A stretch of DNA of 40,976 nucleotides from a virus. The stretch covers positions 1 to 40,976 of IMG/VR virus record IMGVR_UViG_3300000117_000065; one strand, 5' to 3'. Made by a program: the position numbers and the translations under genes. Shown here in pieces: positions 26,612 to 28,164 of the stretch; position 1 is the stretch's first letter, and each line of letters begins with the position of its first letter. Under the pieces are notes generated by a model. It had not been told where the DNA came from. It made no database searches and saw only the letters and a program-made list of their open reading frames with translations.

Positions 26612-27037
26612 ATGAGAAAATTTTTCAACCACATATCTCTGATAGTAGCGGTAGTCTTGATCATGCTTGCATTCGCAATGCCGGCATCCTCAGAGCAACT
26701 GACACTTGATGAGCCTGCCCTGGTACTCACGATAGAAAAGATCCCGATTGTTGCTATTGAGCCCGCCAGTGATGGCGAGCCTCAGCTGGTAACCGTATCG
26801 GAAATCTACGTGCTTACCGTCACAACACAAGATCAAAGCTATTTGCCAACCGACTACCAACACCAGGTAGCGCCCCAAGTGAGGAACGCTAGCTATATCT
26901 ATAGCTTGGAAGAGGTTCCCAAACAGGCAACGCTCAGTCATAGCGTAGATGGCTTTGCTCAGACTTCCGTTACTGGCTACAAATACATCGATCCAGGCGA
27001 TTACACTGAAACGATGTATCAGGTGCCAGACATCTGA
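26612..27037 (+). CDS. Exported protein of unknown function
   Basis: A 141-residue protein with a classic signal peptide. A basic start (MRKFFNH) is followed by the hydrophobic core ISLIVAVVLIMLAFAMP and a probable cleavage after ASS. The mature part is beta-rich, with repeated IEKIPIVAIEPAS and VSEIYVLTVTTQDQSYLP patterns and no Cys. A GAGAGGAAGATGG site precedes the ATG. It is the last gene before a strong terminator and the tmRNA. An exported phage product in this position could act in the periplasm during infection, for example in exclusion. This is inference. Confidence 0.65.
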   Translation: MRKFFNHISLIVAVVLIMLAFAMPASSEQLTLDEPALVLTIEKIPIVAIEPASDGEPQLVTVSEIYVLTVTTQDQSYLPTDYQHQVAPQVRNASYIYSLEEVPKQATLSHSVDGFAQTSVTGYKYIDPGDYTETMYQVPDI

Positions 27038-27063
27038 GACTAAAGCAAATAGATATTAAGAAA

Positions 27064-27088
27064 GCCCTGCTCAATGCGGGGCTTTTTG
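27064..27088 (+). terminator. Rho-independent terminator after the lysis/accessory operon
   Basis: GCCCTGC (27064-27070) pairs with GCGGGGC (27076-27082), with one T-G wobble and a 5-base loop, followed by TTTTTG. It separates protein-coding transcription from the tmRNA region, so the tmRNA probably has its own promoter or depends on read-through. Confidence 0.85.
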
Positions 27089-27119
27089 TGGTAACATCCT
27101 TTCCATAGCTTGGCAGCTA

Positions 27120-27470
27120 TTATGACTGTATGAAGCGAAGAGGAACTATTGAGGACGCGGGTTCGACTCCCGCCAGCTCCACCATGAGCGCTTGACCGCC
27201 AAATCTACCTCTCACACCTATGGGTGCCAAGTAGGTCACTCGCGGGACAATTCAAGCGTTCTTGATGGGGCTGATCTGGATTCGACTTGGTAGCAAATCA
27301 ACGTGGACAGTCCGGCAATGTGAAAGCCGATAGGGTTGGGAGTTCCTGGCCGCAGAAGCAACTTAAAGTAATCGCAAATGACGATAACTACGGAGATGAT
27401 CGCCTAGCCGCGTAATCGCTCCCAAGGCTTACCGCCCCCATGTGCCTTGTCACCCAAGGGGGCAACCTTT
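27120..27470 (+). ncRNA. ssrA: Circularly permuted (two-piece) tmRNA
   Basis: The tmRNA parts occur in permuted order. First is the acceptor piece. The P2 3' strand CTATTGAG is at 27146-27153. The T-arm GCGGG-TTCGACT-CCCGC is at 27157-27173, acceptor strand CAGCTCC at 27174-27180 and ACCA at 27181-27184. After an 82-base intervening segment the coding piece begins GGGGCTG (27267-27273). This pairs with CAGCTCC and continues into GATCTGGATTCGAC, the tmRNA 5' signature. CTTGGTAG (27286-27293) pairs with CTATTGAG to rebuild P2. The tag frame follows at 27374-27415. A downstream H-type pseudoknot has CAAGGC/GCCTTG and GCCCCC/GGGGGC. The intervening ends carry a 10-bp inverted repeat (27186-27195/27252-27261). 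The outer ends are approximate. Confidence 0.93.
27374..27415 (+). other. tmRNA tag reading frame, ANDDNYGDDRLAA
   Basis: GCA (resume codon) through TAA encodes ANDDNYGDDRLAA. It begins like gammaproteobacterial tags (ANDxNY) and ends LAA, the ClpXP-recognised degron end. It has an unusual GDDR insertion between the two. The preceding AGTAATC matches the usual context before the resume codon. Tagging of stalled nascent proteins for proteolysis follows from established tmRNA function. Confidence 0.9.
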
Positions 27471-27473
27471 CGT

Positions 27474-27572
27474 AGGGGGATAGCTCAGAGGTAGAGCGTG
27501 GTTGTATCCAGGCCGGCTAAATGGATACATTTGATTACAACAAGGCCGTAGGTTCGATCCCTACTCCCCCTT
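27474..27572 (+). tRNA. tRNA-like element with aberrant anticodon region
   Basis: The acceptor stem is AGGGGGA/TCCCCCT (27474-27480/27565-27571), the D-arm GCTC-AGAGGTA-GAGC (27483-27497) and the T-arm GTAGG-TTCGATC-CCTAC (27548-27564), all with perfect stems. Between D- and T-arm lie 50 bases instead of about 23. In them GTTGTA/TACAAC (27501-27506/27536-27541) and GTATCCA/TGGATAC (27504-27510/27522-27528) compete, and no standard 7-base anticodon loop is evident. CCA is not encoded. It may be a degenerate or insertion-bearing tRNA, or a tRNA mimic. Confidence 0.55.
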
Positions 27573-27636
27573 TCCCTACCTCTGCCATAGGTGGTAAACT
27601 CGTTGCCACCCAGTTAACAACGATTAACAGATCACA

Positions 27637-28164
27637 TTGGCAGAAACAGTCATCAAGCCCAGAAGTAGGCAAATGCAGGAATTCTGCAAACATCTTGTTG
27701 CGGATGAGAACTACTGTGGGACATCAGCTGCTATCAAGGCGAACTACTCAAAGAAAACAGCCCGAGTTAAAGCCAGCCAGTTATTGGCCAGAGATGATGT
27801 GAATGCGTACATCGAGCATCTGAAGGCTGAAAGGAACCAAAGGATCAAGGTTGATGCTGATTACGTCCTGGTGAAGCTACAGGGATTTGCTGAGGCAGAT
27901 CTGGCAGCCATCATGCAAGAAGATGGTCAGTACAAGAAACTCAGGGAGTGGCCGAAAGAGATCCGTCAGATGATCAATTACATCGAGATGGGTGAGGACG
28001 GTAGGCCAATTAAGGTCAAACTGGTGGACAAGCTGAGATCCACTGAGCTACTGGGTAAGCATACCTCCGTGAAGGCATTCTCTGAGATTGTTGAGCACAA
28101 AGCGGATCCGGAACTGGTAAGAGCGTTGAAGGATGGCCAGGGAAGATTACAAAGATCCGAATGA
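27637..28164 (+). CDS. Terminase small subunit
   Basis: A 175-residue protein in Terminase_2 style, using a TTG start at 27637. The next in-frame ATG at 27673 would remove part of the conserved N terminus. A helical DNA-binding start (RQMQEFCKHLVADENYCGTS) is followed by AAIKANYSKKTARVKASQLL, the family's helix-turn-helix-like motif for recognising the packaging site. The C terminus is an oligomerising helical segment. It overlaps the large subunit by 32 bases. The small subunit binds pac or cos DNA and presents it to the motor. Confidence 0.85.
   Translation: MAETVIKPRSRQMQEFCKHLVADENYCGTSAAIKANYSKKTARVKASQLLARDDVNAYIEHLKAERNQRIKVDADYVLVKLQGFAEADLAAIMQEDGQYKKLREWPKEIRQMINYIEMGEDGRPIKVKLVDKLRSTELLGKHTSVKAFSEIVEHKADPELVRALKDGQGRLQRSE

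Follow-up and report, generated by a model that had tools for sequence, protein, structure and literature searches.

A circularly permuted ssrA gene in a 41-kb podovirus contig and its extra hairpin before the resume codon

The DNA analyzed here (the window, a whole linear virus contig of 40,976 bases) carries a phage-encoded, circularly permuted ssrA gene whose most informative feature is an extra hairpin before the resume codon. Phage tmRNAs usually are seen as occasional host captures. The account that we favor, and hold with considerable confidence, is that this gene comes from a phage-borne branch marked by the hairpin, that its most probable donor was another phage, and that it would trans-translate with host factors. 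Two-piece tmRNAs in phages have already been published; the basic kind is known, and it is the lineage that appears new. None of the open-access papers searched describes a phage-borne branch with an additional hairpin ahead of the tag. A distinct branch in phages whose host groups mostly use a one-piece tmRNA would make ribosome rescue a lasting phage function. It also raises questions about the role of a hairpin next to the resume codon, the variation of the tag spacer, and the transfer by phages of the permuted form between bacterial groups.

Identity and structure of the permuted tmRNA gene

An earlier note, made from the sequence of the window, had proposed a permuted tmRNA at 27120-27470 and had named Infernal with Rfam models and ARAGORN in permuted mode as the check, with scores below threshold as grounds for rejection. 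Both programs were positive. ARAGORN called a permuted tmRNA (tmRNA*) at 27092-27506 with the tag ANDDNYGDDRLAA, and the Rfam model RF04321 (tmRNA_permuted) matched 27124-27415 over model positions 1-213 with 102 bits (E = 6.2e-19), far above chance and above the gathering cutoff of 47 bits. The one-piece model RF00023 matched in two partial stretches whose order is exchanged, one truncated at 50.1 bits and the other scoring 32.5 bits, under the cutoff, as expected of a permuted gene; a single contiguous 5'-to-3' match to this model was not obtained at the locus. The betaproteobacterial model RF01850 (gathering cutoff, 84) gave no gathering-level row for the window in the Rfam scan, and a separate permissive scan omitted overlapping clan matches; the phage relatives L173, L190, and L197 pass this beta_tmRNA model. 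The parts of the gene and its downstream neighbor are as follows.

About 27124-27184, + strand: acceptor piece, comprising the 3' strand of P2a, the T-arm, the 3' acceptor strand, the discriminator A, and an encoded CCA (RF04321 alignment, ARAGORN)
27124-27129, + strand: P2a strand of the acceptor piece, GACUGU, which pairs with 27307-27312 and overlaps the phage-typical UGUAUGAAG motif
27157-27173, + strand: T-arm with a 5-bp stem and a UUCGACU loop (RF04321 alignment, 60-homologue comparison)
27174-27184, + strand: 3' acceptor strand CAGCUCC (27174-27180), followed by A and by CCA (27182-27184)
27185-27266, + strand: intervening segment (connector) of 82 nt, whose ends form a 10-bp extension helix in the predicted precursor
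G27267 to about 27470, + strand: coding piece, comprising the 5' acceptor strand GGGGCUG (27267-27273), a D-like loop, the P2 strand, the pre-tag region, the tag, and the pseudoknot (ARAGORN, RF04321, RF00023)
27307-27312, + strand: P2a strand of the coding piece, ACAGUC (60-homologue comparison)
27313-27329, + strand: P2b/PK1 first-stem hairpin, CGGC...GCCG (RF04321 consensus structure)
27334-27351, + strand: GGUUGGG-AGUU-CCUGGCC, the additional 7-bp hairpin that precedes the resume codon, absent from the Rfam model positions
27374-27415, + strand: tag frame, with resume codon GCA at 27374, ANDDNYGDDRLAA, and stop codon UAA at 27413-27415 (ARAGORN, resume-context comparison)
27392-27422, + strand: P5-like hairpin containing the tag end and the stop codon (RNA fold)
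27423-27463, + strand: post-tag H-type pseudoknot containing CCUUGUCACCCAA (read from the sequence)
27474-27572, + strand: downstream tRNA-like gene (RF00005, 46.7 bits)

The pairing of the acceptor stem and P2a was assessed across 60 distinct phage homologues. In the acceptor stem (GGGGCUG with CAGCUCC), 408 of 420 cells were paired (97.1%; best of 500 shuffles, 368), and P2a was paired in 338 of 360 cells (93.9%; best of 500 shuffles, 294), with several compensatory pair types in the two helices. The alanine identity pair G3.U70 corresponds to G27269.U27178 and was G.U in 60/60 homologues. The post-tag pseudoknot has CAAGGC/GCCUUG as stem 1 (27423-27428 with 27444-27449) and GCCCCC/GGGGGC as stem 2 (27434-27439 with 27458-27463). 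Duplex folding paired the connector ends, 27186-27195 with 27252-27261, in a 10-bp helix of -16.1 kcal/mol, and comparable helices were found in seven other phage genes examined. Judging from this fold, the helix may plausibly present both cleavage sites in pre-tRNA fashion.

The elements named in the earlier note were therefore borne out: an acceptor piece with T-arm and CCA upstream of a coding piece starting with GGGGCTG, complementary acceptor and P2 strands, and a pseudoknot after the tag. The boundaries that it proposed, 27184 and 27267, are consistent with the predicted fold. The note had overlooked the additional hairpin ahead of the resume codon.

The extra hairpin and the relatives of the gene

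The distance from the coding start to the resume codon is 107 nt in the window versus 83 to 96 nt in sampled alphaproteobacterial, betaproteobacterial, and one-piece genes. Phage genes are bimodal in this respect, with distances either up to 93 nt or of 105 to 113 nt. The 7-bp hairpin, an insert with no counterpart in the Rfam model, makes up the surplus length in the window, and the same hairpin was seen in the long phage genes (about 18 loci). It changes on both strands, with GGUUGGG/CCUGGCC in one form and GAUUGAG/CUCGGUC in another. A blind pattern search of IMG/VR with the hairpin alone returned 65 exactly matching viral contigs, and all of the matches lay within tmRNA coding pieces. ARAGORN called permuted tmRNAs spanning the element in 45 of these contigs and standard tmRNAs in none; in the other 20, the sequence immediately after the element contains the resume codon and tag of a tmRNA.

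A regular-expression scan found the hairpin in 0 of 64 bacterial tmRNAs. The bacterial search was extended to genomes at up to three mismatches, covering 385 genomes of an alphaproteobacterial class and 398 of the Pseudomonadota phylum (783 genome searches, with a few genomes counted in both sets), and it returned 3-mismatch matches only, at about the frequency of reversed-pattern controls. The 11 listed matches, all with three mismatches, were attributed to chance on this basis.

Related phages, which the earlier note had suggested searching for the same locus, carry permuted tmRNAs in at least 7 named cases (phages of Stenotrophomonas, Xanthomonas, Acinetobacter, and Alcaligenes) and in more than 120 IMG/VR contigs. 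BLAST detected tmRNA-like acceptor pieces in phages of Stenotrophomonas, Xanthomonas, and Alcaligenes; ARAGORN and RF04321 identified permuted genes in five of the phages found in this way and then in Acinetobacter phage BUCT628 and Xanthomonas phage X1. A stricter permuted-gene pattern had no matches in IMG/VR, and two looser, gapped-pattern scans gave 89 contigs, 82 of them with an ARAGORN permuted tmRNA. Since the first viral relatives were gathered by sequence pattern, this set is biased towards similar genes. The named phages comprise Stenotrophomonas phages Marzo (Menderavirus), QDWS359, and DLP_6, Xanthomonas phages Rb1 and X1, BUCT628, and Alcaligenes phage QDWS595. Like the window, they have a permuted gene, several have UGUAUGAAG, and their tags include long-spacer forms such as ANDNVFGAKTLAA, but the five genes measured (L133 to L137) are without the extra hairpin. 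Closer likeness was found in IMG/VR: L151, L173, L190, L197, L199, and the 65-contig set have permuted genes with the extra hairpin and UGUAUGAAG, about 68 to 74% identical to the window. These relatives differ from the window in belonging to other phages, several of them of 90 to 354 kb, and in their tags, and those tested had no match to the window terminase.

Among bacteria, clearly permuted tmRNAs were found in 37 of 41 genomes of the class of an alphaproteobacterium, in 13 of 300 of the order of Herbaspirillum, and in 1 of 369 of the class of an Erwinia genome (Gammaproteobacteria). Three further RF04321 matches in the gammaproteobacterial sample, at 47 to 49 bits, proved to be one-piece genes. 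The bacterial genes covered by RF04321 (merged from RF01849, RF01850, and RF01851; Alphaproteobacteria, Betaproteobacteria, and Cyanobacteria) share with the window the order acceptor piece, connector, coding piece, as well as the tRNA-like domain, the resume codon and tag, and a beta-type post-tag pseudoknot. The window differs from them in its extra 7-bp hairpin, its UGUAUGAAG acceptor-side motif, its phage carrier, and its connector, which is 82 nt long versus 4 to 58 nt in the bacterial permuted genes examined.

A tmRNA database update counts 79 unique phage tmRNAs (PMC11915505), and another survey counts 53 two-piece phage tmRNA structures, with marine or aquatic samples accounting for 50 (PMC9004378). 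As described there, Methylophilales phage Melnitz likewise encodes a permuted tmRNA whose nearest kin are not host genes. The Melnitz gene differs in being alphaproteobacterial/SAR11-like and linked to a glutamine riboswitch, and the passages of that account consulted make no mention of an extra hairpin (PMC9004378).

Descent of the gene

The search with the hairpin alone gave viral contigs, all with the match in a tmRNA coding piece, and chance-level matches in the 783 Pseudomonadota genome searches, and phage-to-phage acquisition therefore is the best explanation of the window tmRNA; this lineage is well supported. The best global alignments of the window, in a comparison restricted to permuted genes, all were to phage tmRNAs (68 to 74% identical). 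UGUAUGAAG occurs on the acceptor side of 37/78 and 3/5 phage tmRNAs and of 0/64 bacterial ones. Of the trees with imposed constraints, the one that joined all phage genes and the window in a single clade had the highest likelihood of those tried. The earlier note had suggested transfer from another lineage or an independent permutation. Transfer is upheld but redirected, in that the closest relatives are the tmRNAs of other phages and not the alpha- or betaproteobacterial chromosomal genes sampled.

Independent permutation, in which a one-piece gammaproteobacterial ssrA was captured by a phage and then permuted on its own, is highly improbable. The coding start, GGGGCUGAUCUGGAUUCGAC, is close to the one-piece consensus, and the free tree, which is weakly resolved (173 columns, short sequences, no starred set around the window), puts the window, along with three other permuted phage genes, close to the base of the one-piece genes (93/96); a window-plus-one-piece grouping was not rejected by the AU test (p = 0.57), nor was window plus alpha (p = 0.16). 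However, CAUGUAG, found at the acceptor-side position in 30 of 32 one-piece genes, is missing from the window gene, and the pseudoknot motif CCUUGUCACCCAA is of a beta type common to permuted genes (7/14 permuted genes of a betaproteobacterial order, 12/78 phage tmRNAs) and was seen in 0/32 one-piece tmRNAs. UGUAUGAAG and the extra hairpin, both absent from the 32 one-piece genes sampled, and the high-scoring alignments, which are to phages alone among the permuted genes compared, likewise disfavor this origin. We regard it as very unlikely that the gene came directly from the chromosome of a bacterial host, be it a betaproteobacterium or another, that has a permuted tmRNA. Such donors exist in the order of Herbaspirillum, as counted above, betaproteobacterial-order genes, L268 for one, have a match to the post-tag CCUUGUCACCCAAG, and some phage relatives pass the beta_tmRNA model. 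Against this, the AU test rejected window plus beta (p = 0.032), though the beta genes themselves are not one group; the hairpin and UGUAUGAAG are absent from the sampled bacterial genes; and the 783 genome searches held no real hairpin match.

Overall, phage-to-phage acquisition is favored for the window. A wider proposal, which we offer tentatively and think rather unlikely as a whole, is that phages keep their own two-piece tmRNA branch, with a phage-only hairpin and fast-changing tags (some of 26 to 32 aa), that it is passed among unrelated phages and hosts, and that it may have seeded the patchy permuted ssrA of some Burkholderiales. If true, phages would not just receive permuted tmRNA but also supply it. 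Separately, the phage gene L196 was observed to group with the Burkholderiales-order permuted tmRNAs L269, L271, and L272 (support, 83/82), a hint of phage-mediated spread.

Tag, proposed role, and surroundings

The tag ANDDNYGDDRLAA keeps an AANDxxY-like start and the LAA end. The earlier note had called its GDDR insertion distinctive. This holds for the exact peptide, of which a pattern search found no second copy in IMG/VR or about 85,000 GTDB species genomes, but not for the layout: AND..[YF]GxxxLAA recurs in L181 (ANDSAYGEESLAA) and in BUCT628 (ANDNVFGAKTLAA), and one-piece gammaproteobacterial tags such as ANEENYGEDAIAA have similar inserts. In the classical tag, AANDENY-A-LAA, the stretch corresponding to the spacer is a single A. 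Engineered DAS+4 tags have four residues between the SspB and ClpX sites and give rapid degradation with SspB and stability without it (PMC8138137). We hypothesize, by analogy, that the natural GDDR spacer may act like the DAS+4 insert.

Long tags of 26 to 32 aa were predicted by ARAGORN for the phage permuted tmRNAs L148, L153, L161, L166, L169, L172, L200, L204, L207, L209, L215, L220, L224, L230, and L232 and for some loci of the hairpin-search set. Several share a common core such as FDF(S/T)AMSFTGN, for example, ANDNAFDFTAMSFTGNTVANDSKFALAA, and, among the matches listed, the long frame follows a resume context of the normal UAAA type.

The proposed mechanism is as follows. A single transcript would fold so that the acceptor stem and P2 join the 3' (acceptor) and 5' (coding) parts. 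Host RNase P would cut at G27267 and a tRNA 3' nuclease at the CCA ending at 27184, and the 82-nt connector would be lost to leave a two-piece tmRNA. Charging with alanine by host AlaRS would proceed via G3.U70, with carriage by host SmpB and EF-Tu. The charged RNA would enter stalled ribosomes, translation would resume at GCA 27374, and (A)ANDDNYGDDRLAA would be appended, presenting both classical degradation ends, the AANDxxY SspB-type site and the LAA ClpX/ClpA site, with the longer GDDR spacer between them. During infection, this might keep ribosomes free and remove truncated proteins while mRNA is destroyed. The gene form, its intact elements, and the covariation are demonstrated here; we infer processing, charging, SmpB use, tagging, ribosome rescue, and any benefit.

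Portal/connector, terminase, head, tail, and lysis genes indicate kinship with epsilon15-like podoviruses; with the ARAGORN and RF04321 results, this gene set agrees with the earlier note, which had placed a two-piece, permuted tmRNA in a podovirus of 41 kb. On one side of the RNA genes is a gene without assigned function (26612-27037), on the other the gene for the terminase small subunit (27637-28164). The window ORFs scanned included no recognizable SmpB, SspB, or integrase. In terminase relatives, no tmRNA was present near the terminase (60 loci) or anywhere in the viral records searched whole (17 records); the tmRNA is therefore an accessory gene here and could be a passenger that is kept only transiently. 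A scan of the + strand upstream of the tmRNA gave no sigma-70 promoter-like site.

Two other readings of the RNA's role were weighed, and both seem quite unlikely, to about the same degree. The RNA might be a decoy or inhibitor that titrates SmpB or competes with host tmRNA instead of tagging. Phage tmRNA-like molecules that inhibit host tmRNA have been published (PMC4131195), among them the tag-less molecule of mycobacteriophage DS6A, with a reported decoy role (PMC4131195, PMC11915505). A decoy role is less likely here because the complete tag is kept, from its resume context to the LAA end and the stop codon; moreover, 45 of 53 distinct phage tags keep the AA end, which a pure decoy would not need. 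Alternatively, the gene might be a degenerate passenger, a pseudogene or functionless transferred RNA gene, possibly serving as a recombination target. The disruptive 22-nt insert in the adjoining tRNA, the terminase relatives without the gene, and the negative promoter scan fit this reading, but none of the key elements is damaged, even where other family members have altered both strands of a pairing, and no integrase was recognized in the scanned ORFs.

Several minor observations concern the surroundings and the named phages. The tRNA-like gene at 27474-27572, absent from the earlier note, reads as tRNA-Gln(UUG) only with a 22-nt anticodon-loop insert (27508-27529, CCAGGCCGGCUAAAUGGAUACA) removed, and ARAGORN called it only with introns allowed. 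The insert and tRNA patterns had no copy in IMG/VR, and the tRNA-Gln(UUG) of the relative L011 was not closely similar in a by-eye comparison. No riboswitch reached gathering level in the Rfam scan of the window. A group I permuted intron-exon arrangement was dismissed, as a permissive Rfam scan of 26901-27900 gave no intron match and the connector has only 82 nt. By eye, a terminator-like hairpin, AAAGCCC...GGGCUUU with a U-run, lies just upstream of the tmRNA at 27061-27086; the terminator scan did not report it. Klebsiella phage Kp4866-6 (OK490421.1, L367) was rejected as a relative, having no ARAGORN gene and T-arm/acceptor/CCA sequence of the one-piece type only, which probably is what remains of an attachment site from a prophage that had integrated into ssrA. 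Many phage records are without tmRNA annotation, including most of those of the named phages; the permuted tmRNA is unannotated in MZ593728.1 (L366), PQ569993.1 (L134), ON331942.1 (L135), KU682439.2 (L136), and OQ427096.1 (L368), and in ON331942.1 an antisense hypothetical protein overlaps the gene. In Alcaligenes phage vB_Af_QDWS595 (L137), the permuted tmRNA is directly followed by an ARAGORN tRNA at 1084-1160 with anticodon TTA, which would read the stop codon UAA.
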